Shown piece by piece: positions 23,048 through 61,323 of a stretch of DNA of 64,000 nt. The notes under the pieces were generated by a model that was given only the letters and a program-made list of their open reading frames with translations, was not told the DNA's origin and ran no database searches. Both the position numbers and the translations under genes were made by a program. Every line of letters starts with the position of its first letter. Position 1 is the stretch's first letter. Source of the DNA: Candidatus Methanoperedentaceae archaeon (GTDB lineage: Archaea; Halobacteriota; Methanosarcinia; Methanosarcinales; Methanoperedenaceae); the NCBI GenBank assembly GCA_003104905.1, contig PQAS01000028.1, positions 1 through 64,000 on the forward strand. Reading direction: 5' to 3'.

Positions 23048-23053
23048 ACATTC

Positions 23054-23302: not shown

Positions 23303-23474
23303 GCATATCAGCGAGATAGTACATTACTTTCCCCATACTGATTTTTTCCCAAGATTTTTCTTGTTTTTTTCCATTGATAACATTTACGACTTCAATTGGA
23401 AGAAACATCTGCCTATTTTCAAAATCCTTTGACGCTTCACGTAACAGATTTACTAAATCATTTATATTCATCAT
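23292..23474 (-). CDS. Small hypothetical protein, 60 aa
   Basis: Begins MMNINDLVNLLREASKDFEN, mostly helical, ends in YYLADMLEE. The overlap with the downstream zinc-ribbon gene and A/T-rich codon use like its neighbours support it as a real island gene. No family recognised. Confidence 0.55.
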   Translation of the reverse strand: MMNINDLVNLLREASKDFENRQMFLPIEVVNVINGKKQEKSWEKISMGKVMYYLADMLEE

Positions 23475-23590
23475 ATCATCGCAGTCTTAAAGGTCTTTGA
23501 AGTATAAATATTTACAGTTTAATTACAAATTATGTACAATTAAATGCAAATGAAAACAAATATTAACAGCCAGTAAAATTTAAGGTTGAA

Positions 23591-24544
23591 ATGGTAACAA
23601 AAAATTCAAAGCCAGAGCAAGAACAGAAACCAGTTCATATTTCTATGAAAGAAATAACTCATCAAGACCATTTGAAATTTTTGAAAAAACATGATCACGT
23701 TGTTATTGATAACGTAAAAGTCCCCCTTAATGCAAATAGTAAGATAAAAAAATTCGCCCCCTCCACCTTCACCCCTGAAACCACCACAGTCTGGAGCTTC
23801 CCCGACCGCGGCGATTGGGCGACGCACATAGGTAACTACAGGGGGAACTGGTCGCCCTACATCCCGCGCAACCTCATTCTTCGCTATACGGCGCCCGGTG
23901 AGCTTGTGCTTGACCAGATGGCCGGCTCAGGCACAACGCTTGTTGAATGCAAACTCCTGGGGCGGCGCGCCGTGGGCGTGGACATCAATCCTGATGCGGT
24001 CATGGTGGCGCGAAACCGTCTGGACTTTTCTTATGCGACCCTGGATGCTGATTATACGGCGCCGGAAATAAAAACGTATGCCGGTGATGCGCGCTGCCTT
24101 GACCTCATCGGAAACGAGACCATTGACCTCATAGCAACACATCCACCTTATGCCAGCATCATCCCTTATTCCCATGACCGCGAGGGTGATTTATCAAGAG
24201 TTCATAACATTGCCGAGTTTGCTGATGAAATGCGCCGGGTAGCGGTTGAGTGCATGCGCGTCCTCAAACAGGGAAAGCACTGCGCCATCCTCATGGGCGA
24301 TTCGCGGCGCAACAAGCATTTCATTCCAATAACTCCGCGGGTGCTGATGAGCTTCCTTGAGGCGGGTTTCATTCTCAGGGAAGATATTATAAAGATGCAG
24401 TGGAAGATGAAAAGCACCAGGGAGAAGTGGTTCGGGAAGAAGTACGATTTTTACCTTATAGGGCATGAGCACCTGTATGTGTTCAGGAAACCGGATGCGG
24501 AGGAGAGGATGGCGAAGTTCAAGGAGAGTATGAAGTGGTGGTAG
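23591..24544 (+). CDS. DNA N4-cytosine/N6-adenine methyltransferase (beta-type), composite 5' end
   Basis: 317 residues. Motif I is LDQMAGSGTTLVEC (108-121) and motif IV THPPYASI (183-190), the order of the alpha/beta-type DNA methylases; SAM binding follows DINPDAV. Residues 1-54 are A/T-rich and Lys-rich, while from FAPSTFTPE (base 23752) on the gene is GC-rich, a sharp break. The same 71-base stretch recurs at 24901. The gene therefore looks spliced together from two sources, or its start region was replaced. It is probably active as the two catalytic motifs are intact. Confidence 0.85.
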   Translation: MVTKNSKPEQEQKPVHISMKEITHQDHLKFLKKHDHVVIDNVKVPLNANSKIKKFAPSTFTPETTTVWSFPDRGDWATHIGNYRGNWSPYIPRNLILRYTAPGELVLDQMAGSGTTLVECKLLGRRAVGVDINPDAVMVARNRLDFSYATLDADYTAPEIKTYAGDARCLDLIGNETIDLIATHPPYASIIPYSHDREGDLSRVHNIAEFADEMRRVAVECMRVLKQGKHCAILMGDSRRNKHFIPITPRVLMSFLEAGFILREDIIKMQWKMKSTREKWFGKKYDFYLIGHEHLYVFRKPDAEERMAKFKESMKWW

Positions 24545-41617: not shown

Positions 41618-43423
41618 TTACTTTTTTAAGGTATATAAAATCATCCTCCTATATCTTCTCGATGCCACACTTAACATATCCCTTGGAATGGAATGTTTGT
41701 TGACATTCAAAAAATTCTTAATTATTAAAAGTTCATTCTGATAGGCTGATGCGATCGATTCCGCATATGAAAGACCATCGCTTGTAAGGACATATTCATA
41801 TCTTTGCTGCCATCTCCCTTTGTTTTCAAAATACCGCAGGTCTTCATCCACCATTCCCATTGCAACAAGGAGCTGGATATCCTCGAAAAGCCTGTCGCTA
41901 TATGAAAAGCCATAATCCGTATGGAACCTGTAATCAAATAGATTCTTCAATTTTTCATCTTTTCCAAGTTCCCTTACGAGATAATAGATCTTTGCAATAT
42001 TTCGAAGCCTTGGCATGTTGATCATTCCTTCCCCCTCGATGCTAAACAACCTGTGGGCGCTGTAAAAGATAAGAAGAAGCCCTTCGATCGGAAGGTAATT
42101 TTCATTCCTGATAAAGCGCAAAAGGTCCGGGGATAGATTTTCAATGCCCAGGAGGAAATCATGCGATGCCTGAGCGGGATTATCTTCCGTCTTTGAGAAT
42201 ACGCAGAGGGAAATCTGGCGTGAGATGGCCCTCACAAGACCGTTGGCAAGAGCTGATTCATCGTACAGGAAACTTTCCCCGTCCTGTGTTTTTAGGCGGG
42301 TGCTTTTAGGAATCCCGCCCGCAACATCGAGGTCAACAAGAACAGAGGCACCATATTTATCCGCAAAACGTTTTGCAAGCCCGTCCTCGAACATCTTCTT
42401 GGCAACCCCGTTCCTTGCAATAGTGGAAAGCGCCATCCTTGTTCTGGGGTTGAGGTTTTTATGTGTAAAACGCGAAATAGCTGTGCAGATGCTGGCATTT
42501 CGTATATTAGCTATCAATTTCCTTGAGTTTTCATCTCCATTGGCTTCTATGAAATTCAAAAGATCGCTATCATTGTATGATGTAAAGAATTTCAATACGG
42601 CAGCTTTTACATCATTCCCTGACTCTTTATACCTTGAAAGTGTTTTTTCAAGTGCATGAAGCAGCATGACCCTTGCACCCTGTGTCATTGGATTATGGAT
42701 TATCGCAGAATAGTGATGTGCTCTCGCGATCAGCATAGATTCAGCAGCGATAAGCGCCATATCTTCGTCATAACTGAGAGTACCGCCAAGAACGATCCTT
42801 CCATTATGGACAGACATGCTTGCGATTATCTGGTCAACATCCACAAGCCCGAAAGAAACGCCAGTGTGATATGAATCACGCAGCAGGAAATCGATCCTGT
42901 CAGCGTCAATATCATTTGAGATGATTTGTGTCAGATATGGCTTCGAAACACCTTCAAGATCTCCCGTTGCCATTTTTGAGATATCCCGGAAGAACGAAGC
43001 ATCCGCATGCGATGCAATTTCCGGCTTATTATGGAATGAATGAGCGATCACAAATCTGGTGAACATCTCATGAGCAAGGAAATTCCTTCCAGCCAGGACG
43101 GGCTGGTACTGCGGATTGCGTTTCAGGATGCTTTCAACCACATGTGAAAAAGCGCAGTGCCCGATGTCATGAAGGAGAGCCGCGAGTCTCACTTTCAAAA
43201 TCTCCTCTTCATCCAGACCCAGCGAACGAGCGATCTTATCAGCAATGAACAATGTTCCCACACTGTGTTCAAAGCGCGTATGGTTCGCTCCAGGAAATGC
43301 GAACTCAGCAAGACCGAGCTGCGAAATGCGGCGCAATCGCGCCATTTCAGGCGTGCTGATGATTAGCTGCTCAAAGCTGGTAATTGCCACATGACCATAG
43401 ATGGGGTCGATGATAGAGGGCAT
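41618..43423 (-). CDS. HD-domain phosphohydrolase, SAMHD1/dGTPase-type
   Basis: 601 residues. Metal ligands: His53 (HTRFEHSVGTLF), His85-Asp86 (LLHDIGHCAFSH), and Asp in DADRIDFLLRDSYHTG near 195. The N-terminal 350 residues fit the SAMHD1-like dNTP triphosphohydrolase fold; the C-terminal about 250 residues are helical with no family I recognise. Substrate may be dNTPs. A second family member is at 52517. Confidence 0.85.
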   Translation of the reverse strand: MPSIIDPIYGHVAITSFEQLIISTPEMARLRRISQLGLAEFAFPGANHTRFEHSVGTLFIADKIARSLGLDEEEILKVRLAALLHDIGHCAFSHVVESILKRNPQYQPVLAGRNFLAHEMFTRFVIAHSFHNKPEIASHADASFFRDISKMATGDLEGVSKPYLTQIISNDIDADRIDFLLRDSYHTGVSFGLVDVDQIIASMSVHNGRIVLGGTLSYDEDMALIAAESMLIARAHHYSAIIHNPMTQGARVMLLHALEKTLSRYKESGNDVKAAVLKFFTSYNDSDLLNFIEANGDENSRKLIANIRNASICTAISRFTHKNLNPRTRMALSTIARNGVAKKMFEDGLAKRFADKYGASVLVDLDVAGGIPKSTRLKTQDGESFLYDESALANGLVRAISRQISLCVFSKTEDNPAQASHDFLLGIENLSPDLLRFIRNENYLPIEGLLLIFYSAHRLFSIEGEGMINMPRLRNIAKIYYLVRELGKDEKLKNLFDYRFHTDYGFSYSDRLFEDIQLLVAMGMVDEDLRYFENKGRWQQRYEYVLTSDGLSYAESIASAYQNELLIIKNFLNVNKHSIPRDMLSVASRRYRRMILYTLKK

Positions 43424-45876: not shown

Positions 45877-46278
45877 ATAAATAAATCATCTCATGAATTA
45901 CCTTCGGTTTTCATTTCCATGATGATCTTATCGATATATTTGGGGCTTATAATAATTCGAGGACGACACCTGCCCCTCACCCTTCTAAGGCGCCGTCGGT
46001 TGCCGATGAGAGGGGGCTGGGTTATGTTATGCGCCTGGTTTTTATAAATTAAATGCAATAAATTTTCAGACTTTTATCCAAGAAGATGAACTCATAGCAA
46101 TATATAAAGAAACCGCAGATGAACGCCGATCAACGCAGATTTATTGCACCGGAAATGATACCGTAAAAGGTATAAATCAAAGCGCCCCCCACCAATCGTT
46201 CCCGTGGCGGCGCCGGGATTTGCGTAAAGGGAAGGGGCGAGGAGGAAGCAAGAGTGGGGAACTGAAATTTGATACCGA
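45877..46278. other. Gene-free spacer with repeat
   Basis: Contains the repeat at 46089-46240; no gene is evident otherwise. The stretch 45900-46060 has a few cgccgtcggttgccgatgag-like GC-rich words but no coding frame. Confidence 0.5.
46089..46240 (+). repeat. Dispersed direct repeat, copy 1
   Basis: aactcatagcaatatataaa, aaccgcagatgaacgccgat, cagatttattgcaccggaaa, and gtggcggcgccgggatttgc. A second copy in the same orientation is at 51810-51950 with about 85 percent identity by eye. Confidence 0.8.
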
Positions 46279-46539: not shown

Positions 46540-46789
46540 CTATTTTCTCCTTTTGTATTCTATCCATTTATTTTCATCGGGATGATAAATAGTTATCACC
46601 CGGATGGTCGAGGAAAAAGCACAAACTATATGGATTGGATCTCCTTTCTTATCTTTCCCGTATATCAGGCAAGATGGATATGGTTTATCTTCTTCATATT
46701 CTTCTATGATCTCACCATGAATTATTGCATGTTCAATATCTGCTTTCCAAATATCACGCTCTAAAGCTCTTTCAAGTGCATGTTGATTT
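46540..46789 (-). pseudogene. DUF4258 toxin gene, 5'-truncated by IS21
   Basis: The open frame on the minus strand reads HALERALERDIWKADIEHA, then IIEEYEEDKPYPSCLIYGKD, HIVCAFSSTIRVITIYHPDE and NKWIEYKRRK before the stop: the DUF4258 pattern. The first dozen residues, including the start, are missing because the IS21 left end begins at 46790. Presumed inactive. The partner antitoxin remains intact. Confidence 0.85.
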
Positions 46790-46877
46790 TGTCAATAGCG
46801 GTCTAATTTTCCCCATTTTCAGCGGGATAAAAATCCCCATGTAACAATCTTGGGTAAAATCCCCGGATTGGAAAACT

Positions 46878-48116
46878 ATGCTTGAAATTGAGGAATACAT
46901 TATGATAAGAGAACTACACGCACAGGGTTTTAGCATCACTGACATATCGGATAAAACAGGATATGACAGGAAGACCGTAAAGAAATATTTGAATTTGACA
47001 ACAATACCGGAACCAAAACAACGGGCAAAAAAAGCAAGTATGCTTGATCAATACAAAGATCACATCATCAAGAAACTAAACGAAGCTCCCTTCACCGCTT
47101 CCCGTCTATTTAGGGAAATACAGGAAATGGGGTTTAAAGGAAAATGCACAATAGTAAGGGATTTTGTCAGAAAAGTCCGACCTGAGACGGGAGTCCAGGC
47201 CGTTTACAGATACGAAACAAAACCCGGAGTACAGGCACAGGTTGACTGGTCAGAATTCGGAAAAGCCGATATAGATGGTAAAAATCTGAAATTGTATTGC
47301 TTCAATATGATACTTGGCTACTCAAGAATGCGGTATATCGAATTTACACTGAGTATTGATGTATATACACTGATTCAGTGCCATCTGAATGCATTTCGTT
47401 ACTTCGGAGGATACACTGAAAAGATACTCTATGATAATATGAAACAGGTGGTGATAAAACGAGCAATGATCTCCACAGAATCAGAATGGAATTCCAAATT
47501 TGAAGATTTTTCCAAGCATTATGGATTTCTTCCTCATTTATGCCGACCATATCGACCTCAGACAAAAGGCAAAATAGAAAACAATGTCGGTTATGTAAAA
47601 AGAGACTTCTTCCTCGGAAGAAACTTTAGCTCATTTTCTGATATTAATTCTCAGGCACTTACATGGCTAAAAAGGGTCAATTCAGAAGTCCATGGAACAA
47701 CACACGAAATACCTCTTGATCGTCTCAAATTGGAAGGACTAAAACCATTAAACGGAGTGGCTGAATATCTTATTATCCGTGAAGAAAAAAGGACAATATC
47801 AAAAGATTGCTTTATTTCATACCTTGGGAATTTCTATTCCATCCCATATCGATTTGCAGGCAGAGAGGCAACACTTCAGATAATCGGTATCAAATTTAAG
47901 GTAATTGTAGGCGATGAGCAGGTCTGCGAACATGAAATACTTGCGGGAAGAGCAAGGGTATCAAGAGTTAAAGAGCACTTCAAAGGACTGCTAAGTGAAA
48001 TCCAGAATGAAAATAAAGCTGCCATGAATACATCAGGGCAAACGATATTGAAATTCGAAAACGTTGAAGTGGAAAAACGTTCTCTTTCGGTTTATGACTC
48101 GTTGATTGAGGGGTAA
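46878..48116 (+). CDS. istA: IS21 transposase IstA
   Basis: 412 residues. N-terminal HTH (MIRELHAQGFSITDISDKTG), then the DDE integrase core with VDWSEFG (Asp), ILYDNMK and later KGKIENNVGYVKRDFF (Glu). Complete. Confidence 0.95.
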   Translation: MLEIEEYIMIRELHAQGFSITDISDKTGYDRKTVKKYLNLTTIPEPKQRAKKASMLDQYKDHIIKKLNEAPFTASRLFREIQEMGFKGKCTIVRDFVRKVRPETGVQAVYRYETKPGVQAQVDWSEFGKADIDGKNLKLYCFNMILGYSRMRYIEFTLSIDVYTLIQCHLNAFRYFGGYTEKILYDNMKQVVIKRAMISTESEWNSKFEDFSKHYGFLPHLCRPYRPQTKGKIENNVGYVKRDFFLGRNFSSFSDINSQALTWLKRVNSEVHGTTHEIPLDRLKLEGLKPLNGVAEYLIIREEKRTISKDCFISYLGNFYSIPYRFAGREATLQIIGIKFKVIVGDEQVCEHEILAGRARVSRVKEHFKGLLSEIQNENKAAMNTSGQTILKFENVEVEKRSLSVYDSLIEG

Positions 48117-48120
48117 ATCC

Positions 48121-48888
48121 ATGACTAATCTTGTTTATGAAAGACTACATGAAAATTTGGCTAAACTAAAACTGAATACTGTTGGCACTATTCTGGATAA
48201 CTATCTTGAAATTGCTGCAAAGGAAGGAAAGACTACACTTGAAGTTCTTGATTATCTGATGGATCAGGAAAAACATGCCAAGGATGCTTCATCACGGGAA
48301 ACAAAAATGAGACTTGCAGGATTTCCTGTGAAAAAGAGGCTTGAGGATTTTGATTTTGAATTTCAGCCTTCGATTGATAAAACAGTTATCAGCGACCTTG
48401 CTTTGTTGAGATTTGTCTATAATGCAGAGAATGTGGTTTTCCTTGGTCCTCCTGGTGTGGGGAAGTCTCATCTGGCAGTTGCTCTAGGTATTGAAGCTAT
48501 TAAATCCGGTCTTTCAGTGTATTTTGCCAATGCAGGAATACTCATTGAAAGATTGAAAAAAGCAAACGGAGAGGGCTTACTTGAGGATAAACTCAGGACT
48601 CTGGCAAAGTACAAATTGTTGATAATCGATGAGATGGGATATTTGCCTTTCGATAGTGACGGGGCTCATTGTTTTTTCCAGCTTGTGTCAAAACGATATG
48701 AGAAGACTTCGATTATTTTTACATCAAATAAATCATATGGTGATTGGGGTGAGATATTTCATGATCCGGTTATTGCCGCAGCTATCCTTGATAGGATCTT
48801 ACACCATTGTACCACGATAAATATCAAAGGGGAAAGTTACAGGCTTAAGGAACGGAAAAAACATGGATTGACAATTCCACGGAAATAG
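48121..48888 (+). CDS. istB: IS21 helper ATPase IstB
   Basis: 255 residues from the ATG at 48121, with gattgagggg as ribosome site; an upstream TTG is an unlikely start. Walker A FLGPPGVGKSHLA, Walker B LLIIDEMGYLPF, and sensor motif TSNKSYGDWGE. It regulates IstA assembly at target DNA. Confidence 0.95.
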   Translation: MTNLVYERLHENLAKLKLNTVGTILDNYLEIAAKEGKTTLEVLDYLMDQEKHAKDASSRETKMRLAGFPVKKRLEDFDFEFQPSIDKTVISDLALLRFVYNAENVVFLGPPGVGKSHLAVALGIEAIKSGLSVYFANAGILIERLKKANGEGLLEDKLRTLAKYKLLIIDEMGYLPFDSDGAHCFFQLVSKRYEKTSIIFTSNKSYGDWGEIFHDPVIAAAILDRILHHCTTINIKGESYRLKERKKHGLTIPRK

Positions 48889-48991
48889 GGGTTACTTCTT
48901 GTTAGAAAATTTGAAAGTTGAGAGGAAACTTTATAAGTGGATGGGGAAATTTAGACCGCTGAATTTGGGGATTTTTATACCGTTGTTGACA

Positions 48992-50112
48992 GCGATAATG
49001 CTACTGATATTTTCAGTAAATTTATCGATGGATTTCTTGGACGGTTTGACAAGAAGTTTACCGTTGTATTTTCTGAAGTTCCATCCTAGAAAATCAAAGC
49101 CTTCGTCAATATGTGTTATCAATGTTTTCTCATCCGAAAGTTCCAAACCTCTGTCTCTCAGGAATTCTTTTATCAGTTCTTTAACTTCTTTTGCAATTTC
49201 CTCAGTTTTGGCAGTAACAATAAAATCATCAGCGTATCGGCAAAAATTTACTTTGTATTTTGCCGCATGTTTATTGTTTATTCTTCCATTTTTAATCTTG
49301 TGATATTTATCATCAAGTATATCCTCAATCCCATCCAATGTTAGATTGGCAAGGATTGGCGAGACAATACCACCTTGTGGAGTTCCTGCCTCTGTAGGGA
49401 ATAAATGCCGTTCAAATATATAACCAGCTTTCAAAAATTGTTTTAGAACTGTTTTGTCCATTTGGACATTGTTTATTAACCACTGATGAGAGATCGAATC
49501 AAAACATCCTTTGATATCACCTTCCAGTATCCATACAGGAGAATTCTCCTTGCACAGATAAAGATGGACTTGTTGACAGGCGTCATGTGTACTTCTAAAT
49601 TTCCTGAAGCCAAATGACCTCTTATCAGCTATGGTTTCTGCAATCGGTTCTAATGCCAATGCATAGAGGGATTGCATAGCCCTATCGTACATTGTGGGGA
49701 TAACAAGAGGTCGTTTCTTCTTTTTCCCAGGTTTTTCAATGAAAACACGCTTCAGTGGCTTTGCGACATATTTTTCATCCGATAGTCTGAGAGCGGCCTT
49801 CATTTTGGTTTCAGGTGATGACCATGTTTCACCGTCGACACCAGCCGTTCTTTTGCCCTTATTTTGAGTGGGTCTCCTAACTGCTAATAGTTTTGCATAA
49901 TAGGAGTGGGTTAAGAGATACTGCAACCTTTTTACCAGATACCATTTACCTTCTTTAACTGCCTTTGTTATCCTGACCTGCAGCCTATTTACAAGTTTCT
50001 CAGCCTTCTTCCAGTCGATTGAGTTCCACTGGTGTCTAAGTTGCTTGTTTGCAAGCTTCTCATCTTTCGATGTAATTGAATTTCCTGCGTTCATAGGTTT
50101 GCCTTCATTCAA
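48992..50112 (-). pseudogene. Group II intron reverse transcriptase, C-terminally truncated
   Basis: RT domains present: MNEGKPMNAG start, GVDGETWSS, RPLVIPTMYDRAMQSLY, GDIKGCFDSISH, TPQGGIVSPILANL, and the catalytic CRYADDFIVTA (YADD). After KSIDKFTENISSIIA the frame enters IS21 sequence. The maturase and DNA endonuclease parts are lost; splicing function is probably gone. Confidence 0.88.
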
Positions 50113-50591
50113 ACAATCAAATACTAATGATAAGTCAGCACATTTTCATGTTGAGGCAAGTACCTCTATTCGATTCGTTACAGATCGACATTCGCTTTTT
50201 ATCATATCCTCTACCCTCTGTGCCTTCGTAACCCCTTGTGATATGTTAGGGAGCACATCGGGCTTACCAAGTTCTACATTACAAATATTTATGAATACTT
50301 TAGAAGCCACCTCTAAGCCGAAAACCATTCGTCCATTTTTCTGTAATGTCGACAAAGCTATTACAGCCTGATTTTGTACCTTTTGGTTTAAGCGTGTGAC
50401 AGTCCTTTTCGCTTATCGCTGCTGACGACTCTTACGGTGATTCAGCATATGCTTCTCCTTGATATTCTTACCCTAACGGATAGTTCGAATTGGACTTTCA
50501 AATTTCTCCATATTGTCCTGAGGGCTTTACACGAAAACGTTACCATTTTCGCATACCTTAGTAGGGTCGTCCCAAATGGAAGGAACGGCAC
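48992..50591 (-). mobile_element. Group II intron 1, 3'-truncated by IS21
   Basis: The 5' end on the minus strand starts GTGCCGTTCC at 50591; the following RNA region has words shared with intron 2 such as gtaaagccctcaggacaata and ggagaaatttgaaagtcc. The intron includes an RT gene and is cut at 48992 by the IS21 right end, so the RT C-terminus, maturase X domain and intron domains V and VI are missing. Confidence 0.75.
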
Positions 50592-50628
50592 ATTGGCAAT
50601 TCATAATGCAGCTTATCTTGTCGCACTT
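50592..50628 (-). repeat. Intron target-like segment between introns 1 and 2
   Basis: On the minus strand gcgacaagataagctgcatt then atgaattgcc. The 5' flank of intron 2 (51621-51652) reads gacaagaagttacatcataa then attgcc: same words with a two-base gap. Both introns therefore follow the same kind of target site. Confidence 0.6.
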
Positions 50629-51240
50629 GTCAAAACAGCCTTTGATATCTCCTTCCAGCACCCACCGGGCAGAATTCTTTTTGCTTAGACAGTTAAATGC
50701 TTGCTCACAGGCATCATGAGTGCTTCTGTTTTTACGGAAGCCAAACGATGCCCTGTCAGCGGTTGCTTCTGCGACAGGGTTTAATGCAAATGCGTATAAT
50801 GCTTGCATTGCCCTGTCGTGCATGGTTGGGATACTTAAAGGTCGTTTTTCCTTCTTACCATATTTCTCAATGTAGACTCTACGTAGTGGTTCTGCTTTAT
50901 ATTTCTTGTCAGATAGATTAAGGGCAGCGTTCATTTTGGCTTCGGGTGTTGTCCACTTTTCGCCATCGATTCCCGCTGTTCTTGTACCCTTATTTTGAGT
51001 TACTTTCTTTATTGCCAACAATTTCGCATAAAACGAATGGGTTAGCAGATATTGTAGTCTTTTAACTGAATGCCTATTTCCTTGATTCACTGCTTTTGTA
51101 ATCCTGACTTGCAACCGATTAACATTATCTGTGACTGTTTTCCAATTGATATCTTCCCATTGGATTTTTAGTTGTGTGTTTGCAAGTCTCTCACCTGTTG
51201 GTGTCGTTGAATTACTTGCATTCATCGGGTTTGCCTCCAT
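50629..51240 (-). pseudogene. Group II intron RT fragment (second copy)
   Basis: Residues 1-204 match the first RT at about 65 percent by eye: TQNKGTRTAGIDGEKW, RPLSIPTMHDRAMQALY, SFGFRKNRSTHDACEQ, WVLEGDIKGCFD. After GCFD the frame continues into foreign sequence. No YADD box is present. Confidence 0.85.
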
Positions 51241-51620
51241 TCATACAATGAAACACCTCCGGTAAGTCAGCCCCCTTTCGGGTTGAAGGCAAATTTTGAA
51301 CCTCTATACAACTCATTACAAATTGTCATTCGCTTTTTACCGTTTCCTATACCCTCTGTACCATCGTCCCTCCTCACGGAGTTCCTAACCATCATGTCCT
51401 GATTCCGTACCTTTTGGTCTAAGCGTTTCAGTCCATTTCGCTTATTTCCTGTAACGGCTCTTGCAATGATTCAACGTTAGTTTCTCCATTGTGTTCTTAT
51501 CCTAACAGATTGTTTGATTTAGACTGTCAAATTTCTCCATATTGTCCTGAGGGCTTTACACCCCAGCATTACTGCCGACGCATACCTCAGTAGGATTACC
51601 CCAAACGGAAGGGGCAGCAC
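50629..51620 (-). mobile_element. Group II intron 2, truncated
   Basis: 5' end on the minus strand at 51620 (GTGCTGCCCC). Its leading RNA region shares gtaaagccctcaggacaata and gaaatttgacagtctaaat-like words with intron 1. It contains the first 204 codons of an RT and ends after GCFD at 50629, where a 37-base segment leads into intron 1. Confidence 0.75.
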
Positions 51621-51659
51621 GAGGCAATTTATGATGTAACTTCTTGTCACAAAGGATTT

Positions 51660-51735
51660 ACAGGATCGACAGGATTGGATTGAAAAGTTATCCTGTAAAT
51701 CCTGTTATCCTGTCGAATTGTGCTTCTGCTTGTAA
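51660..51735 (-). repeat. Inverted repeat arm region, with 33-base match to 39578
   Basis: 51699-51731 is the exact reverse complement of 39578-39610. The neighbouring part 51655-51685 (ggatttacaggatcgacagg) and 51690-51700 (tcctgtaaat) form a small inverted pair around it. Confidence 0.8.
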
Positions 51736-51809
51736 TTTTTTATGAAAATAAGTGTCTATTTTGCTTATAATTAGAAAAAAAAGAATTCTAACAAATTTGC
51801 CACATGCTC

Positions 51810-51950
51810 AACTCATAGCACTTTATAAAGAAACCGCAGATGAACGCCGATAAACGCAGATTTATTGCACCGGAAAAAGTACAAATCAAAGCGCTCTCCA
51901 CCAATCGTTCCTGTGGCGGCGCCGGGGTTTGCGTGACGGAAAGGGAGAGT
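51810..51950 (+). repeat. Dispersed direct repeat, copy 2
   Basis: aactcatagcactttataaa, aaccgcagatgaacgccgat, cagatttattgcaccggaaa, and gtggcggcgccggggtttgc. Same order as copy 1 at 46089. Confidence 0.8.
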
Positions 51951-51977
51951 TTTCATCGATATTGGGAGGAGCTGAAC

Positions 51978-52520
51978 TTATATATCCTGCGATTCTTCAA
52001 TGAAATTATCAAGTACATTGACAGCATCACGTGCTTCATCCAGAGAAACATGTGGTTTCAGCTTATGGATACATTGCGCTCTGGCTTCAATACTATTATC
52101 CGTTTCTATTTCACGAGTGACATAAAGTGCTGTGGCTAAACGTTCAAGCTCTGTAACACCTTTATCTCCAAGTTTATTTGCAATGAATTTCACCATTGGA
52201 TTGTACTTTTTCAAAGTTTTTGGATAACGCTTTTTTATTAATTTGCTGCCTCTACCATGAATAAAGCTGGGACCATAAGGGTATAGTTGAGGTTGTAATT
52301 TGAGGAGTGCATCTGCCCGCATTGCTGTCAATTCATCACTCAGATCAAATGAATACGGCCCATGTTTATACAGAACAAATTCAAATTCCAGGGGAACCCT
52401 GAGCAATTCCTGAACGAAATATGTTGCTTTTTGAATGTGGGTTTCCCCGCACCAGCTTCCTTTTGCCCTGAGATTTTCTATCAACGATAATATCACAGCA
52501 TCCCGCTGTAATCTTTTCAT
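51978..52520 (-). CDS. YwgA-like protein
   Basis: 180 residues with GSWCGETHIQKATYFVQELL (21-40), FVLYKHGPYSFDLSDEL and HGRGSKLIKKRYP. The pattern is typical of YwgA-type proteins, related to the SocA/GepA-like family. It overlaps the HD gene by four bases. In Bacillus, ywgA is adjacent to ywfO, also an HD dNTPase-like gene, so the pairing is old and wide. Role unknown; a regulator of the HD enzyme is a reasonable guess. Confidence 0.75.
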   Translation of the reverse strand: MKRLQRDAVILSLIENLRAKGSWCGETHIQKATYFVQELLRVPLEFEFVLYKHGPYSFDLSDELTAMRADALLKLQPQLYPYGPSFIHGRGSKLIKKRYPKTLKKYNPMVKFIANKLGDKGVTELERLATALYVTREIETDNSIEARAQCIHKLKPHVSLDEARDAVNVLDNFIEESQDI

Positions 52521-53821
52521 ATTTTTTCTACCTCCTTCTTTGTAATTATTTTTTCACGCTCTTCTTTTAACCATTTTTCAGCCTCTTTTCGATAATCAGG
52601 ATTGATAAATACATAATCTACTGCGACAATAGGAACAGTCTTTAAAACCTCAGACATTGCCAGAGATGATGATATTCGGCCATCTATTAGTATGGGAAAG
52701 TTGAGACCACTGCCTTTTTGCTTGTAGGTATCAAATCGCATATTTGCCTCACCGAACTTTTTGCGTGCTGCATCGAAGATTAATTTTCCAGCTTCGGGAT
52801 TTTTTTGGATGTCATTGGGGTTCCTCTGATACCACAATTTGAAATGCTCTCGATCAATTATTCGTCTTGCTGAATCATGTCCTGGATGCTCTTCGTGTCT
52901 GGCTGCCTTAAATAAATCTACTGATATTTCATTGTCGGTCATCTTTAGATGTTCCTCGACATCAATAGGTAAGTATCCGCCGGGGAACCATTTCTTGAGG
53001 AAGTCCCTCAAATGAATATCATATATTCGCCTGACATGATGATAATAAACTTGTGTATACATAAAGTATCTTGCCAATACCAATGCTTCCGCGGAGTGCA
53101 AACCACCTTCTTCTATGCCAAGAGCAGGTTCTGCAGAACCACCCTCTTCTTTGGGTAGAATACGCATAGTATCAATAAGTCGATAATGATCGAACTTCCC
53201 GTAAGCTACTCCCACATGGTGAGAATCTCGAATCAAGTAGTCCATTCGGTCAACTCCAAAAGCATCACCCACGATAATTTCTGAAAGAATTGCTTCCCAA
53301 TCCGTAAAAGCAGAATCTTTGTATTTTTTAGGACCTACAGCAAGTTTAGCAACATCATCTGATTGTATTTTAATCTCCTTCCAAATAGGCTCAAGTTCAT
53401 CGCTGCGAATAATCTCCAAAGTGAGGCGTTCATGGTCCCAGCCATCAGGTAGCAAATCTTCGGCTGAATGGGAAAAAGGAAGGTGCCCTATGTCATGGCA
53501 TAAAGCCGCCATGCGAAGAACGCGGCGCCAATATGGATGTTCATATGAATTATGCGCAGGCACAACATTTTTTACGGATTCATGGGAAATATTGGATGGA
53601 TCAGTTACAGTATCATAGACTCTTCCAGCCAACTCCATAACACCCAGCGAGTGCTCAAACCGTCTATGAGTTGCTCCAGGATATAGAAGATATGTTAGAC
53701 CAAGCTGATGAATATGACGAAGTCGTTGGAATGGACGGGTTTTAAGTACCTTCCTTTCATTCGAATCGAGGCGAATGAAAACATGCAGTGGATCGCGGAT
53801 TTCATGCATGTGTTTTGCCAT
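52517..53821 (-). CDS. HD-domain dNTPase-like protein (YwfO/SAMHD1-type)
   Basis: 434 residues. Metal ligands in HRRFEHSLGVM, LCHDIGHLPFSH and VDRMDYLIRDSHHVG. Core fold is that of SAMHD1-type dNTP triphosphohydrolases; C-terminal part has GSGLNFPILIDGRISS. Preceded by a TATA-like box (ctatataagc near 53960, minus strand) and a ribosome site gaggtga. dNTP hydrolysis is inferred. Confidence 0.85.
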   Translation of the reverse strand: MAKHMHEIRDPLHVFIRLDSNERKVLKTRPFQRLRHIHQLGLTYLLYPGATHRRFEHSLGVMELAGRVYDTVTDPSNISHESVKNVVPAHNSYEHPYWRRVLRMAALCHDIGHLPFSHSAEDLLPDGWDHERLTLEIIRSDELEPIWKEIKIQSDDVAKLAVGPKKYKDSAFTDWEAILSEIIVGDAFGVDRMDYLIRDSHHVGVAYGKFDHYRLIDTMRILPKEEGGSAEPALGIEEGGLHSAEALVLARYFMYTQVYYHHVRRIYDIHLRDFLKKWFPGGYLPIDVEEHLKMTDNEISVDLFKAARHEEHPGHDSARRIIDREHFKLWYQRNPNDIQKNPEAGKLIFDAARKKFGEANMRFDTYKQKGSGLNFPILIDGRISSSLAMSEVLKTVPIVAVDYVFINPDYRKEAEKWLKEEREKIITKKEVEKI

Positions 53822-53994
53822 TAGTTTTTCACCTCAATGACAAATATGAGCCAATTTAGCGCAGTCAGGCGCCCCTCAAATAGCATGCTATATTTCGACT
53901 TGATGGATGTATAGAGGAGTGTATTAGAGTGCATGATTATGGGTTATTTTGCTTATATAGGGATGTGTAAGTATTCAGAATGCTGATTCGATTG

Positions 53995-55113
53995 TCAACG
54001 TGTCATTATAATATCAATCTCACCTTTTTCCTTTGAAGTATTCCCATGCATTTCCGTTTGAGTTTTCTTTACAAATGGTCTATCGGTGATTTCTGTCTTG
54101 TGTTTTGGGAAGTGTAACTGCAAGATTTCAAGTGTTGAGTTGAAAGTAAATTCGCGTCTGTCTGTCCGAACGTAGATTGTACTGTTCTCGTCCATTAAAG
54201 CAGCACAATTACCAAAAACGGTGTCAAGGAGATTGTAATAGTTTTCTTTGGAAACAAAACGTCCTTTGTGTTTCTCTTGATTCGATTTCGGTATCTCTGA
54301 TCCACCGAGCAACCATAGTCGTAACCACTGGTCAGCGTAGTAATTAGTCACAGAGCAGTAGGGTGGAGAAGTTAACAGTAATGAAAAACGAATGCCAGTT
54401 TCCTGGGATTTCTGAACAACTTTGTATAATTCAATAGTGCTATCTCCGAAAATTACTTGACTCTCGAATACTTTTGGTATTCCCTTTTCGTATCGCCAAT
54501 CCAGTTTCTTTGTGACAAAGTCCACAGGGTTGATTTCTGGCGGTTTTGTCATTTTGTGTTTTGTCCACCAATTCACCGAGTAATTGATGCCCATTGCTTT
54601 GGTCATTTTCATTTGATTGGAGAGTCCTTCGCCTAATTTGCCGTGCAGATAGACCAACAATATTGACATTAGTGTTGCATCAATGCTGTTCATTTTCCAA
54701 TTCAAATGCTTCCTTGCTGATAATAGGAATTTTAAAACCTCATCGCAATAACACATTCGGTAGAATAAAGGCATCATTTCAATTGCTTGATTGTAGTAGT
54801 TTCTTTTGGAGTAAATTTCTAATAAGCGGTCGGTTACTTCTGCTTTATCAGCAGGTTGGAGTTTGACAGTTCCGTAAAGCCAACCGACAGGATTGATTTC
54901 AATTCCTAAGCTGTGGCGACCTAAAACGCCGCCGGCATAAATGCTGGAACATCTACCTGCAAACGGATCGATAATATAATCGCCCTCTTTTGAGTACTGT
55001 TCAACCACTTCAAAAGCAAAGTCAAGTGGGAACATAGCATAATAAGGCCCTAACCTCGCCCAGCGAGATTCAGGGGTTTTAAATCCTTTTAATATGTCCT
55101 CAATATTCATCAT
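53995..55113 (-). CDS. DNA methyltransferase of the HerA-NurA operon
   Basis: 372 residues. Motif I IIDPFAGRCSSIY (47-59), SAM acidic LGIEINPVGW, and catalytic TSPPYCSVTNYY (248-259) with S/T-P-P-Y. Order I then IV fits beta-type methylases modifying N4-C or N6-A. It overlaps nurA by four bases. Role in self-marking is inferred. Confidence 0.85.
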   Translation of the reverse strand: MMNIEDILKGFKTPESRWARLGPYYAMFPLDFAFEVVEQYSKEGDYIIDPFAGRCSSIYAGGVLGRHSLGIEINPVGWLYGTVKLQPADKAEVTDRLLEIYSKRNYYNQAIEMMPLFYRMCYCDEVLKFLLSARKHLNWKMNSIDATLMSILLVYLHGKLGEGLSNQMKMTKAMGINYSVNWWTKHKMTKPPEINPVDFVTKKLDWRYEKGIPKVFESQVIFGDSTIELYKVVQKSQETGIRFSLLLTSPPYCSVTNYYADQWLRLWLLGGSEIPKSNQEKHKGRFVSKENYYNLLDTVFGNCAALMDENSTIYVRTDRREFTFNSTLEILQLHFPKHKTEITDRPFVKKTQTEMHGNTSKEKGEIDIIMTR

Positions 55114-56495
55114 GTCCGTAATGATTTGTCTCGGATTTCTCTTGCAATCTCATCAAAAATTCTTTTGCCAAGATTCAATGGAATAGCTGCTTCTGCATGT
55201 GCGGAGACCAAAGGTGAAACAGAGTTGGGATAGCGGCTGGAAACCAATTCATCAAGAACATTCATTAAATCAGCCAATCTTGGGTACTGGTCTGTTCTTG
55301 CTGTTGCCAAATTCTGTTGATGGTCGTTGAAGAAGGCAAGCACAGGGACAATTCTGTATCCTGTCTTTGTTTTGTAAAACAGTTTTCTGCCGAAATAGGT
55401 GTCTTGACCATACGGTTTGTAGCTTTCAGAAAATATGATATTCCTTTTGATGTAGCCATCTGAAAGCAGAAACGCAGACTGGTTCGGAAAGCGATCGGTT
55501 GTGCCATCCGCTTTGGTATCAACCTCCTCAAAATGATTGTAGAAAGTGCCTGATTTTTCAATGCCAAATATCAAAAATTCTTTCTCTGTCTGTTTCTTTT
55601 GAAGTTTATTTATACGAGCAAGTTCTGTAATGATAGATTTGTTAATCCAAGACCATGTACTGAAACAAGCTAACGGGCCATCAAGTACAAAGGCAACTCT
55701 GTCCAATAGGTTTAGCCAATCTTTTTTTTCAAATGACCTCAATATGTGAATAAGCCAGAGCTTCTCAAACATCTGCATTATCTGGCCATACATTTCGCCA
55801 TTTGTGCTGCTCGGATTCATTAGTTCGTGTAAGCGCATTGCATCTGTTGAGTACAATGGTTCTCCGCTATGTGGGCAGGTGTATTGACCAAAATCGTAGG
55901 TCATTTCTTGGTCAACTTCATCAATAGGACTTCTTGGTTTTCTTCTATCTCCAAGTTCTTTATCCTTTTCGAGTTTGATTCGAAAAAGGTGTTCATAGGT
56001 TTCAAGTAAAGTTTCGCCTTCTTCAAACACTCTCGTATTTTGAAGTTTCTCAAACAACTTCTTACGCATCGACGCTTTGGCTGATTTCTCATCATCAATG
56101 ACGACATTACAGCCAGGAATTGCTGTCTCAAATGAAGATGGCTTCTCGGTTTCCCTGAACCTCTTTGGATCAATAAATTCTTGCCTGGCAAATTCCCTGA
56201 CAGATCTTTCAATTATCAGAACAGCAGAAATGGTGATCCAACCATACTCGACACAGGGAAATCCGTTTTCGATTTTTGATGGCTGGTAACTTCCATCAAT
56301 GGCAATAACGTAATCAGGAATGAAATCGCTCGCCAGGTCAGACTTATGGATGATGTTGCCTTCAAATTCTTCTTGTCCGTTTTCTTGTTCGCCTCTTTTC
56401 CTTATTCGCAATCGTTTCTGTAGTAATTGGACTTCGGGGCTGTCCAGTATTCTACGGAGCGATTCATAACTTGCAAATTCGTTTTCAAATCCCAT
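55110..56495 (-). CDS. nurA: NurA-domain nuclease
   Basis: 461 residues. VIAIDGSYQPSK (Asp67, RNase H-like first strand), VAFVLDGPLACFST near 268 and VSAHAEAAIPLNLGKRIF at the end match the NurA layout. Longer than NurA of DNA repair (about 340-400). It has an insertion in the middle (about 115-260, with TCPHSGEPLYS). Partner of the HerA ATPase; 5' to 3' exonuclease activity is the family expectation. Confidence 0.85.
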   Translation of the reverse strand: MGFENEFASYESLRRILDSPEVQLLQKRLRIRKRGEQENGQEEFEGNIIHKSDLASDFIPDYVIAIDGSYQPSKIENGFPCVEYGWITISAVLIIERSVREFARQEFIDPKRFRETEKPSSFETAIPGCNVVIDDEKSAKASMRKKLFEKLQNTRVFEEGETLLETYEHLFRIKLEKDKELGDRRKPRSPIDEVDQEMTYDFGQYTCPHSGEPLYSTDAMRLHELMNPSSTNGEMYGQIMQMFEKLWLIHILRSFEKKDWLNLLDRVAFVLDGPLACFSTWSWINKSIITELARINKLQKKQTEKEFLIFGIEKSGTFYNHFEEVDTKADGTTDRFPNQSAFLLSDGYIKRNIIFSESYKPYGQDTYFGRKLFYKTKTGYRIVPVLAFFNDHQQNLATARTDQYPRLADLMNVLDELVSSRYPNSVSPLVSAHAEAAIPLNLGKRIFDEIAREIRDKSLRT

Positions 56496-56509
56496 ATTAT
56501 AGACTCAAA

Positions 56510-58627
56510 TCAGGCAATTACATTAAACTTATCCACCTGTACAGGAATGACAAATGGATTGCTCAATGTCTTAACTCGTAAAAATCCTTTATCCTGTGCA
56601 CGTCTTATTGACGGCTCGAAATCGGCAAAATCATAATACTTGCAGAGTTCTTTAGTTTCGTCCGTGTTATTTAAGTGAGAAATAAACCAGTTTGCAGTAT
56701 TCCGCAAGATATTTTTTTGAATACTACTGACTTCCTGAGTGGCATAAACCATCCCAATTCTGTATTTTGCTCCTTCCTTAGCCGTTCTGACCCAAATATC
56801 AGTTAAATCCAAGTCATTTCCTGCAGGAAGAATATTGTGTGCTTCTTCAATGTAAACCAAGATTTCAGGGATGTTAGTTACCCCCTGAATAAACTTACTT
56901 TGATTTTTTCGGAAAATTTCTGTCATTATTCTGTTTGCAGATGACTTGTTCAATTCTGGCTCACCACTGGATTGGTCAATAATAACAAGTTTACCTGCAA
57001 CCAAGTGGTTATAAATCTCCACTGAATAATCTTTTCCTGTGTCCTCACTGTGTTGGGCTACTGCCTTTCCAATCTTTTTTGTTCCATTAGGGTACTGGAA
57101 AATTCCGATGATTTTCTTAAAATCCTCATCAGCCCAATTGCCTGAATGTTTCTTTACATATTCATCATCAAATGCCTTATAACCATTTTTTTGGTCTCGA
57201 ATGAATCTATCCAATGCGTCAAAAGCATTTCCAAGCTGTTCCCAACTTGGGTTTGGGTTTGAGAAAACTTGTGCTGCCGATTTGTATTTGTCCGAATTAT
57301 CACCTTTACTATTCTGCATAGCTTCCAGCAATTCCGGATTGAATAGTCCTCTTGTACTTGCCTGCAAGCCCCGTGGAACTGTAAAACCAGCCCTTGCCAA
57401 AATTGCTCTGTATGCTAATACCCTTCGGTTATATCTTGTCAATGCACTACGGTCTTCAGGATCAGGTTCTTCAAATACTACATCACGGAAGACATTTATG
57501 TAAGTGACTTTATCATCCGCAAAAATACCATCAATAATTTGTTTTCCAATCTGAAGGTTTTCATCGGTATAGAAATTCAGGAGCATTAAAATCCGGTCGG
57601 GGTCACTTGGGTGTTTGGTTATCCCGTAGGTAACGACTTCATCTGCTTTCTTGGCCCCTTTGCGTATTTCCCAAATATTCTTCAAGGCGTTTGGATTGTT
57701 TTTACCATCTTTGTCCTGTATGTTTTCATTTGCATATTCTCCGTTAGGGTCGAATACAATTTGGCCTATTCTTAATTCCTTGTCCCCTGAGTTTTTAGGA
57801 TAGCGCAATTCATAAACCGACTTTGCAATGATTTTGGTAGTATTCGACTTGCCTGTCCTTGTCATGCCAAATAAGGCGGATTTTTGAGAGAGCAGGTCAG
57901 CGGGGTAGATGTGCACAGGAACATCATCAATCTCTTGGAATTTTCGGTTTGTTGATGCATACCTGATGAATCCAAGTTTCACTTTTTCGGTTGTTCCATA
58001 TTTTTCGATGTGTTCTTGCCTGTTGCTCGGGTCTGTATAATTTACTATTAGCTCCAGTGCTTTGCCATTTGGCTTGTAAACTTTTAGTCCCCTATTCGGA
58101 TAAAAGTTGGAGAGGTCGCTGCCAAATTTTAAATGCAACCGACTATTTCCATTTTGTTCTTCGGTTTGTGTATCCAGATAAAATGTTCCAATGATTCTAC
58201 ATTGAACTCCAGCATAACCTAAATAGACACGTGTTTTCGCGTCCATTATTCCATCTCCGTCCCAATGCTTGTCAGTATCTCCACTAACCCGCTGGGCAGT
58301 CTCAACTCTTATTCTTTCTGCTTCGGAACTATTTGGTAATTGTGCTGCATCCATTACGCGAAGTAGAATAAATGAAGAGTCCTCCTCTTTGAAGTTAATC
58401 TCTGATTTATCCGGGTCAATGCGTGTGGCAATAAGAAAACTCAAACTCGGTATTCCTCCAACATTTTTTCTCTCATTGTCGTGTATTTGGATTTTAGCAT
58501 TTTCGTAGTTTATGGAGAAAAGTTCTCCAACGTACTCATTCTTTTGAATGAGTTGCTGAAACAATTTTTGCGCATTTTTTTTTTGTCTGGATTCAAGGTC
58601 TTCAGTTATGCCTTTTTCTATTTTCAT
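56510..58627 (-). CDS. herA: HerA-family DNA translocase/helicase
   Basis: 705 residues from the ATG at 58627 (frame open to 58684; the upstream part has no family features). Ribosome site gggg. N-terminal about 250 residues are beta-rich (HAS-barrel-like), then Walker [13 protein letters not shown] (254-262), Walker [13 protein letters not shown], and the arginine region [13 protein letters not shown]. HerA pumps DNA through a hexamer and works with NurA. First gene of the operon. Confidence 0.93.
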
Positions 58628-58687
58628 ATTTTTCCCCGTTTGTAAAAAATAATATTTAGTCCGCGCATATTCCCCCCACTTCACCCT

Positions 58688-58933
58688 CTAACATCCCGTA
58701 TATCCGCGTCCATGCGGGATAGATGACACAATCTTCTTCGCAAGCCATGTCCTTTCTTCTTTATGCATATCCTGCAGGTTTGCCGTATCGATATAAGATA
58801 TTTCCTCATCAGTTGTTCCAACTGTGGATGCTATCTGCTTTGCCATTTCTATCCGTTCTCTCTTCGTGGCTTTCCATAACCATGAGTCATCAGCTTTACT
58901 GGCAAAGATGAAGCATCCCTTCATCTCAGTCAT
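58688..58933 (-). CDS. Small hypothetical protein downstream of nrdD
   Basis: 81 residues, start ATG overlaps the nrdD stop in an ATGA. Contains FIFASKADDSWLWKATKRER and a helical EERTWLAKKIVSSI. GC-rich codons like nrdD, unlike the HerA gene 60 bases downstream. No family recognised. Confidence 0.65.
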   Translation of the reverse strand: MTEMKGCFIFASKADDSWLWKATKRERIEMAKQIASTVGTTDEEISYIDTANLQDMHKEERTWLAKKIVSSIPHGRGYTGC

Positions 58934-61323
58934 GCGCCCACCCCATATCTCTTCCTGTCCTTGAGCTCCTGCTTCTTCCCCTCATTCCACCCTGAGACAG
59001 CCTGGATATAGCCTGTCACCCTGCTCAGATGCTCCACATTTTCGCTCTCGCAATTGGGGCACTCATCAAGCAGACCTGATGCCACATGGAAATCATCCAT
59101 GCACACGGTCATGTCCTTGGTGAATGCAAAATAGCCCACCTGCGTATTCCTGGCAAGGTTCATGGCAAATTCCTTGAGGCCGTGCGGGTCAGGCGCCGCT
59201 TCACCGAGCCAGATATGAAGGATATTGCCTCCATCCACTATGGGGAAGAAAGTCTCTTCAAGCTTGATGCGCTGCGGGAGGGATACATCCGCATTGGGAG
59301 GGATGTGAGTGCCATTGGTATAATAGATAGGCAGGTCCCTTGTTTCCGAGATGTGTCTCAATGCTTCCTGAACATTCCCTTTGATTATGGGTTCTGCGCA
59401 TTTCCTGTATTCCTTGTGCAGGATATCGGATACTGCGAATCTCTGGGCTGTGGTCTCGGCCGGTGTTCTTGCAAGCGCTATTTCCATACCGTACTTCTGG
59501 GATAGTTCCTTTGCATAGAACTTCATCTCGAACATGGCGCGAATAGCCAGGCGCCGCGCTTCCTCGCTCTCATGTATCTGCTTTCCGATATGGTGCTGGA
59601 CCATCTCATTAATTCCTATGACTCCAATTGTATAGACAAGCCCCTTTGTATCCACTGCTATCTGCCCGTGGGTCATTGTGAAGGGATCTTTTGGTCTTTG
59701 AGTGACGAAGGGCATCCTTCCGTTCCCGATCACGATATCCATCCACTTCCTCTTCACCTTGAAGAGCTCCATGCACAGGTCCATCATGTTCTTCAATTCC
59801 CGGAACAGCACTTCGTCGTCCTTCTTTGCTTTGTAGGCCGCCCGCGGGCAGTTGAGGGACACAACCTGCCATGCTCCCATCGAGAAATGCTTTCCATCAC
59901 GGAAATACAGCTTGTCCTCGAACTCGCTGTCCTTATCGTGTGATGAAGAGAAATTATAAGCACAGCACTGATAGCAGCTTATGCCCTTTCCTGCGCCCCT
60001 GTATTCGGGAAGCTGGTTATCAAAATAAGGCGTGCCATAGCGCGCAGCAAGCTCAAATGCTTTAGTATAGAGTTCATGGTAGCTCAAAAGCTCAGGATGG
60101 GCGCGGTTGAATTCTTCATCCTCGGTCATGAAATCCGGCTCGATGCTTATCTCAGGTTTTGGGAAATTGAAAGGCTTTCCCCAGTAATCACCCTTTAGCA
60201 TCACGTTCATCATAGCTTCAAAACCAAGCCGCACCTCGCGCTCGAACTCACCATAGGTCCGCTTTGGAGCCTGCCTGCCATCCCAGACACTTCCTTTATA
60301 AACAACGGGTTTATCACGCCAGAGTAAAGGGACACCGGGAGAGAGCTGGACGGAGGAGAAGACCAGTTGCCCCCCTCGGGCCACCATCATCTGGGTCATT
60401 TCATAAACGAACATCTGTGTCAGCTGCTCAATCTCATTGTAGCTCATGCCTTCAAAATAAGGCGCCATAAATGTAAGGAAATTATAGAAACCCTGGCCGC
60501 CCGCGAAATTCGTCTGCGCACTTCCAAGGGCTTTCACCGCATGGAGTATTGCAACTTCGGCTTTCTTTGCGGGTCCTGCAACACTCGCCTTTGTGCCGCT
60601 GCCATCCGGCATGAGGCCGTAGTAGAAGAAATACCGCAGGTCCCAGTCCTGGCAAAACGCGCGCGTCCCGAAATATTCCAGGTCATGGATATGGATATCG
60701 CCATTCAGATGCGAATCGGCAAGTTTTGGCGGGATCATGAGAAGGTACTGTTCCTTGCTCATCTTATCCGCTTTTTTCTTGTGGCTTGTCTCTGCGTTCT
60801 CCTGAAGATTTGCATTGTCGCGGGCCTCAAATCCTGAACCCATATCTATGCGATAAGCATCAAAAACAGGAGTTCCCACTCTTGTTGAGATGTTTCGCCA
60901 TTCAGTATGGCCATGCTCAAGCAATATAATATTGACCAGTTCCCGGACAAGAGGACCTGAAAGGAACTTTACGTTCATGTCCTTTATTCTTCTCTCGGTT
61001 TCTCTGGCGATCAATTTCGCCTCTTCTTCCGTTATCCCCTCAGTTCCATAGAACTGTTGACATAGCTTTGTTTCTTTAAGAAGCTGGCTTACAATCGTAT
61101 TCCTGTCCCAATCCATAAGGTGGCCGTCTGTCGTCCTTACCTTCGGGATGGTTGAGACAAGGGAACCCCCGAGTGTTTTCTGTATCGTCTGTATTTCTTT
61201 TGTTTTTTGTTTCGGTTCAAAATTAGCCTGTTTCTGCTTTTTTTCCATAGCAAAAGCATTATACAGTTCTTCCTTATGTTCTTCCATAAGATTCAATATC
61301 TGTACGTCTATATATTTGCCCAT
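58930..61323 (-). CDS. nrdD: Anaerobic ribonucleoside-triphosphate reductase
   Basis: 797 residues, class III RNR. ATP-cone at the N-terminus (about 45-125, VRTTDGHLMDWDRNTI), catalytic cysteine region GISCYQCCAYNFSS, and a glycyl-radical tail with HLSRVTGYIQAV (Gly771). The zinc site at ECPNCESEN has a CxxC; the second pair typical of bacterial NrdD is not visible. Ribosome site gaggtg. The NrdG activase is not in the window. Confidence 0.95.
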   Translation of the reverse strand: MGKYIDVQILNLMEEHKEELYNAFAMEKKQKQANFEPKQKTKEIQTIQKTLGGSLVSTIPKVRTTDGHLMDWDRNTIVSQLLKETKLCQQFYGTEGITEEEAKLIARETERRIKDMNVKFLSGPLVRELVNIILLEHGHTEWRNISTRVGTPVFDAYRIDMGSGFEARDNANLQENAETSHKKKADKMSKEQYLLMIPPKLADSHLNGDIHIHDLEYFGTRAFCQDWDLRYFFYYGLMPDGSGTKASVAGPAKKAEVAILHAVKALGSAQTNFAGGQGFYNFLTFMAPYFEGMSYNEIEQLTQMFVYEMTQMMVARGGQLVFSSVQLSPGVPLLWRDKPVVYKGSVWDGRQAPKRTYGEFEREVRLGFEAMMNVMLKGDYWGKPFNFPKPEISIEPDFMTEDEEFNRAHPELLSYHELYTKAFELAARYGTPYFDNQLPEYRGAGKGISCYQCCAYNFSSSHDKDSEFEDKLYFRDGKHFSMGAWQVVSLNCPRAAYKAKKDDEVLFRELKNMMDLCMELFKVKRKWMDIVIGNGRMPFVTQRPKDPFTMTHGQIAVDTKGLVYTIGVIGINEMVQHHIGKQIHESEEARRLAIRAMFEMKFYAKELSQKYGMEIALARTPAETTAQRFAVSDILHKEYRKCAEPIIKGNVQEALRHISETRDLPIYYTNGTHIPPNADVSLPQRIKLEETFFPIVDGGNILHIWLGEAAPDPHGLKEFAMNLARNTQVGYFAFTKDMTVCMDDFHVASGLLDECPNCESENVEHLSRVTGYIQAVSGWNEGKKQELKDRKRYGVGA

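Follow-up and report, generated by a model that had tools for sequence, protein, structure and literature searches.

A HerA-NurA-methyltransferase cassette in a defence hotspot beside nrdD of a Methanoperedenaceae archaeon, a candidate restriction-modification-like module

The window analyzed here, a stretch of 64,000 nucleotides from a Candidatus Methanoperedentaceae archaeon (contig PQAS01000028.1, positions 1 to 64,000; assembly GCA_003104905.1), carries on its minus strand three genes encoding a HerA-family hexameric ATPase/DNA translocase, a NurA-family nuclease, and an amino-type DNA methyltransferase (MTase), hereafter the trio. herA (56510-58627, 705 amino acids) probably starts at the ATG at 58627 rather than at the GTG at 58684 that opens the reading frame, since its homologues begin there. 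It is followed by nurA (55110-56495, 461 amino acids) and by the MTase gene (53995-55113, 372 amino acids), which encodes an N6-methyladenine (m6A) or N4-methylcytosine (m4C) enzyme. Farther downstream, and as a separate unit, lie the genes of a SAMHD1/YwfO-like HD phosphohydrolase (52517-53821, 434 amino acids) and of its partner, a protein resembling YwgA and the C-terminal part of DarG (51978-52520, 180 amino acids). A preliminary description of this DNA had listed the same five minus-strand genes, and all the open reading frames (ORFs) were recovered with its coordinates and strand. The four-base overlaps that it noted between nurA and the MTase gene and between the HD and ywgA-like genes are real. 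A gap does separate the MTase and HD genes, but its length is 173 bases and not 174.

All three products of the trio exceed the curated cut-offs of their Pfam families. HerA scored 43 bits against DUF87, and its Walker A motif GMTRTGKS, pointed out earlier, is conserved in all homologues with a HerA that extends over this region (24-row alignment). The best PDB sequence match of the HerA profile is TdpA (8wet, 62 bits), and a Foldseek search with the HerA model matched HerA-NurA, TdpAB, and SIR2-HerA complexes, which we use at the family level only. NurA scored 88 bits against the NurA family, and D67, G68, D218, D272, G273, and H433 are invariant in 29 homologues and include candidate metal-binding residues. 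A search for sequence relatives of NurA in the PDB found none, also when the clade profile described below was used at E values up to 10. The MTase scored 46.5 bits against N6_N4_Mtase (PF01555); DPFAGR and TSPPY are invariant in the MTases of 29 homologues, and the motif order, DPFAG followed by SPPY, is that of amino-MTases. In a Foldseek search, the AlphaFold model of the MTase (predicted local distance difference test, pLDDT, 80.7) gave generic methyltransferase matches only, including Escherichia coli Dam, and these do not separate the m4C and m6A subclasses. Judged from their sequences, the MTase and NurA would provide a DNA methyltransferase and a nuclease in the same operon, as expected of a restriction-modification (R-M) system in the broad sense.

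The trio is an additional HerA-NurA copy of this organism, since the same genome, which comprises 2.9 Mb in 59 contigs and gave two matches to NurA and four to DUF87, carries a separate mre11-rad50-nurA-X-herA operon on contig C41. Both mre11 and rad50 accompany the C41 copy, and neither was found beside the trio. The distinction from the housekeeping pair that had been drawn in the preliminary description is borne out in two further respects: NurA of the trio is enlarged (461 amino acids, versus 382 in its housekeeping counterpart), and A/T-ending codons are frequent in the trio, whose G+C content at third codon positions is 36-40%, against 45-46% in the housekeeping nurA and herA and 57% in nrdD. 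In a maximum-likelihood tree of 56 NurAs, including 29 housekeeping archaeal NurAs, the NurA of the trio and its relatives, including the more distant D12-lineage, plasmid, and phage copies described below, form one clade (support 100/99) apart from the housekeeping archaeal NurAs, the C41 copy among them; the long branch c_L141 at the base of this clade should be read with care. D67, D218, H223, and D272-G-P are invariant throughout the clade, whose members share a cysteine-containing, zinc-ribbon-like insert ahead of the invariant D218/H223 pair. MTase genes occur at 49 of the 50 clade loci, or at 46 of 47 once three doubly fetched loci are removed, and they belong to two unrelated Pfam classes, PF01555 (SPPY-type) and PF02086 (Dam/D12), in several gene orders. 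Among 21 loci of housekeeping NurAs, each up to 13 kb long, one had an MTase-like match, and 14 had both Mre11 and Rad50. The C41 operon, the separate NurA clade, and this locus control rule out that the trio is the housekeeping repair copy.

Close NurAs occur in four of the 34 genomes of the family, the window's own included, and in three congeners HerA, NurA, and MTase are each 85-91% identical to those of the window and arranged in the same order. When public genomes were scanned with a NurA alignment of six rows, 41 loci were returned. The 28 loci with 51-88% NurA identity, together with that of congener G005 and the window, make up the close-locus set (n = 30), and the order HerA-NurA-MTase on one strand is found at every one of them. 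The co-occurrence in unrelated genomes that the preliminary description had proposed to look for is thus present. The two situations that it had held to speak against its reading, namely that the trio be the sole HerA-NurA of the organism and sit beside mre11/rad50, or that the methylase never be linked to it, were both not encountered. Host labels of the trio include Methanoperedens-type archaea, Nitrospirota, Cloacimonadota, KSB1, Bacteroidota/Ignavibacteria, Gammaproteobacteria, Campylobacterota, and Caldiserica, several of them attached to short metagenome contigs that are possibly mis-binned; among isolates, Bacteroides fragilis, Psychrobacter lutiphocae, and Sediminibacterium roseum carry it. 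Some copies look broken or cut, with HerA as two ORFs in loci L042 and L046, NurA as two in L052, and contig ends elsewhere. Most loci show the trio on its own amid chromosomal genes, and in other phyla the neighbours of trio-type loci include type I and III R-M, DndC, and PtuA genes. The HerA-NurA-MTase trio is a unit of three genes that is complete in itself and moves horizontally. Two Bacteroidales trios contain a GIY-YIG/DUF4357 gene as an insertion between herA and nurA (L047:9144-9989; L052), and a gene of 285-287 amino acids lies directly upstream of herA in two loci with different host labels (L029:6934-7791, L030:6071-6934). No match to the Psychrobacter trio was found by DNA similarity in E. 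coli genomes.

A more distant operon with the order MTase (D12-type)-HerA-NurA, at 24-30% identity, occurs in Leptospiraceae, Dehalococcoidia, Blastocatellia, Gloeomargarita, Atribacteria, Anaerolineaceae, Heimdallarchaeota, and other archaea. Mobile elements carry the operon as well. A Halorarius plasmid encodes HerA-NurA-MTase, and a Deferribacter megaplasmid encodes MTase-HerA-NurA; the HerA copy of the latter is probably inactive, since an IS200/IS605-TnpB element interrupts herA (L164:1955-5753). Two temperate Vibrio phages were also matched, with the module as cargo beside the integrase. In one of them, PQ189353 (L161 1-6053), the accessory stretch between the integrase and the excisionase codes for NurA, a D12 MTase, and a HerA in two overlapping ORFs. 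NurA patterns detected no trio of the window's own HerA-NurA-MTase type in viral contigs.

In the window, the trio lies downstream of nrdD (58930-61323, minus strand), a chromosomal anchor present in 25 of the 31 genomes of the genus. A small minus-strand gene between nrdD and the hotspot (58688-58933) belongs to a flank conserved in several congeners. The variable segment extends over 11.9 kb (46786-58684) and comprises IS21, reverse-transcriptase genes, the HD/YwgA genes, and the trio; congener G012 (L124) has about 440 bp at this place (blastn). The same hotspot was recognized across the genus (window 46786-58930; loci L124, L125, L127, L129, L130, and L131). It holds the trio in the window, G005, G024, and G027, is essentially empty in G012, and elsewhere contains a BsoBI-type R-M pair with an LmuB-like (Lamassu-like) gene (G030), a GajA/OLD-like (Gabija/OLD-like) gene (G009), or a class I Argonaute with an associated restriction endonuclease (G001 and G016). 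The defence island suspected earlier is therefore real in the sense that the trio sits in a defence hotspot adjoining nrdD.

Comparison with the congeners also resolves the segment into two parts. Blastn homology to the loci of three trio-bearing congeners (G005, G024, and G027) sets in at 53990-53991, homology to the HD/YwgA locus of the trio-less G003 (L122) stops at 53987, and homology to the trio-less G012 and G004 resumes at 58684-58685. The trio cassette (53990-58684, minus strand) is common to the congener trio loci and missing at the empty site, and the HD/YwgA cassette (51990-53987, minus strand) is common to G003. G003, G025, and G030 (YwgA and an HD remnant) have HD/YwgA but no trio, and G005, G024, and G027 have the trio but no HD/YwgA. 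Since the boundaries fall at 53987/53990 and each part occurs independently of the other, the trio and HD/YwgA are, at the level of sequence, two cassettes abutting in one hotspot. The HD protein scored above the curated cut-offs of HD (36 bits) and HD_assoc_2 (59 bits), matched 2hek, 2o6i, and SAMHD1 in the PDB, and retains intact HRRFEHS, HDIGH, and DRMD motifs, as expected of a SAMHD1/YwfO-like HD protein and putative deoxynucleoside triphosphatase (dNTPase). Its YwgA-like partner matched no Pfam family and resembles the C-terminal part of DarG below threshold (34-36 bits); membership in DarTG was rejected (34.5 bits against a cut-off of 250).

In the TdpABC system, phosphorothioate modification of self DNA blocks a translocase-nuclease. 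TdpABC (structures 8wet and 8wfd) and the trio both combine a DNA modification enzyme with a HerA-type hexamer, here the TdpA-like HerA, and a partner protein. However, the third gene of the trio encodes a methyltransferase instead of the phosphorothioation enzyme TdpC, and the NurA clade gave no sequence match to TdpB chains. The ICETh1 operon of Thermus thermophilus is similar in gene composition, with a HerA/FtsK ATPase (TdtA), a NurA-like nuclease, and a methylase in one mobile operon, but it additionally contains a type IIG enzyme, has the order NurA-TdtA, lies in an integrative and conjugative element, and has DNA donation as its tested function (PMC5365140, PMC7767461). HerA together with SIR2 or DUF4297 protects against phage (PMC11291478). 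These systems, SIR2-HerA/Nezha and DUF4297-HerA, likewise join a HerA hexamer to a nuclease-type effector and were matched by Foldseek, whereas the effector of the trio is NurA and a methyltransferase is added; no SIR2 or DUF4297 domain was found among the five proteins. The housekeeping HerA-NurA-Mre11-Rad50 apparatus uses the same two families and differs in the NurA clade, in the presence of mre11/rad50, and in lacking the methylase. DndFGH and the HerA/FtsK capture systems, in which a HerA/FtsK ATPase is recruited to a defence apparatus, contain Dnd or Orc/Cdc6 components that the trio lacks, and NurA is absent from the text describing them (PMC10853773). In PADLOC-DB 2.0, NurA matched no model, HerA gave generic matches only (at most 50 bits), and no complete matching system was found. 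Full-text searches, which excluded subscription papers and newer defence catalogues, returned no description of a HerA-NurA-methyltransferase defence system. The parts of the trio and the principle are known, and the combination appears to be new.

We consider that the HerA-NurA-MTase trio is probably a mobile, restriction-modification-like antiviral module. The gene identities, the conserved motifs, the linkage at 30 loci, the NurA clade with its methylase, the cassette boundaries, the hotspot, and the carriage by phages and plasmids are observed, and from them we infer assembly of the proteins, gating by methylation, and antiviral function. The MTase would mark host DNA at a recognition sequence by m6A or m4C. 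A HerA ring with a NurA dimer would load on foreign DNA that lacks the mark, either at its ends or at unmethylated sites, and HerA would pump the duplex into NurA for degradation of both strands. Either the MTase or the translocase-nuclease itself would read the methylation, which would stop loading or translocation and thereby shield the host. The HD/YwgA pair would be an independent neighbour in the hotspot. In Thermococcus kodakarensis, a HerA hexamer feeds duplex DNA into a NurA dimer and both strands are cut, and the authors of this 2026 study propose a possible antiviral role for HerA-NurA (PMC12977600). By analogy with TdpABC, whose TdpA is the closest PDB match of the HerA profile, provision of the self mark is the most likely task of the MTase. 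Several points weigh against this interpretation. Instead of marking self, the MTase could act in epigenetic regulation or protect the element; a Tolypothrix plasmid carries HerA-NurA without an MTase; the AlphaFold model of HerA is of low confidence (pLDDT 66); the tree has only archaeal NurAs as controls; and the related composition of ICETh1 serves DNA donation in Thermus (PMC5365140, PMC7767461).

HerA-NurA is classically read as an end-resection pair, and the catalytic motifs are kept in the trio, as they would be in a duplicate double-strand-break repair pair with an accidental methylase neighbour. Such a duplicate is very improbable, given the separate NurA clade, the lack of adjoining mre11/rad50, the occurrence of close copies in just four of the 34 family genomes, and the methylase at all 30 close loci. 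That the trio and HD/YwgA form a single five-gene system, with HD/YwgA as a second arm limiting deoxynucleoside triphosphates (dNTPs), had been suggested in the preliminary description. The five genes adjoin on one strand, and four other loci have an HD gene of another, dGTPase type a short distance downstream of the trio; yet the independent occurrence of the two parts in congeners and the cassette boundaries lead us to reject this arrangement as very unlikely. Selfish or anti-defence cargo, in which the MTase shields the element from host restriction and HerA-NurA destroys competitors by superinfection exclusion, would suit the carriage by plasmids and, beside the integrase, by temperate phages. 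We regard it as unlikely, since the trio is mostly chromosomal, occupies a host defence hotspot, and at many loci has no obvious element genes nearby; its mechanism also overlaps with that of the antiviral module.

The most serious rival, which we nevertheless hold to be unlikely as well, is a DNA-transfer module, in which HerA would pump the DNA of a donor to a neighbouring cell, with NurA trimming the ends and the methylase protecting or marking the DNA. The trio is mobile, and the comparable operon of ICETh1 requires TdtA, the type IIG enzyme, and NurA for DNA donation (PMC5365140, PMC7767461). However, no type IIG R-M enzyme was found in the neighbourhood of the trio in the window or among its recurrent neighbours elsewhere, the trio is alone among chromosomal genes at most loci, and it shares its hotspot with defence systems. 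Moreover, the effect of the methylase is minor in ICETh1, whereas the methylase is a constant partner in the trio.

The dGTPase-type HD gene downstream of the trio is found in G005, G024, a Nitrospirota contig (L033), and an Ignavibacteria contig (L041), in the last of which it begins 6 bases past the MTase gene. We estimate that four of 30 loci exceeds chance, because only a few of the roughly 3000 genes in a genome are of this type; yet defence islands attract such genes anyway. In Methanoperedens, the dGTPase-type gene has a nucleoside 2-deoxyribosyltransferase-like gene as its partner, and G008 carries this pair next to a truncated D12-lineage NurA. Pairs of this kind lie beside both HerA-NurA lineages of Methanoperedens (L016:5986-7655, L015:6229-7904, L018:5634-7321), and a nucleotide-depleting defence pair is possible.

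More tentatively, the trio may belong to a widespread, as yet undescribed class of methylation-gated defence without a classical restriction endonuclease. Two unrelated methylase families would have been paired independently with one HerA-NurA clade, and the methylase may double as a sensor that loads the ring translocase on unmethylated DNA for processive degradation of both strands, sometimes together with a dNTP-depleting dGTPase cassette. A NurA clade that stands apart from the repair copies and whose members, in archaea and bacteria, on plasmids, and in temperate phages, nearly always have a DNA methyltransferase beside them provides a clean test case. If methylation gates the translocase-nuclease, this would be an R-M class with a processive shredder in place of a site-specific endonuclease. 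The cultured carriers P. lutiphocae and S. roseum make the trio directly testable.

Other features of the window were observed in passing. Within the variable segment, IS21 istA/istB (46878-48888) stand beside two truncated tandem reverse-transcriptase genes (48931-51240; 70-79% repeated DNA), which are probably of group II intron type. A repeat of about 140 bases with 87-96% identity (46089-46236 and 51810-51945) flanks the IS21/reverse-transcriptase segment, and similar sequence is present in congeners. A second HD/HD_assoc_2 protein of 601 amino acids (41618-43423) is probably chromosomal background, since G012 and G013 have similar genes close to nrdD. At 21211-24544, a D12-class MTase (219 bits) lies close to an N6_N4 MTase (101 bits), with two small ORFs of no assigned family beside them (20667-21191 and 22517-23047); this region is possibly another R-M locus.

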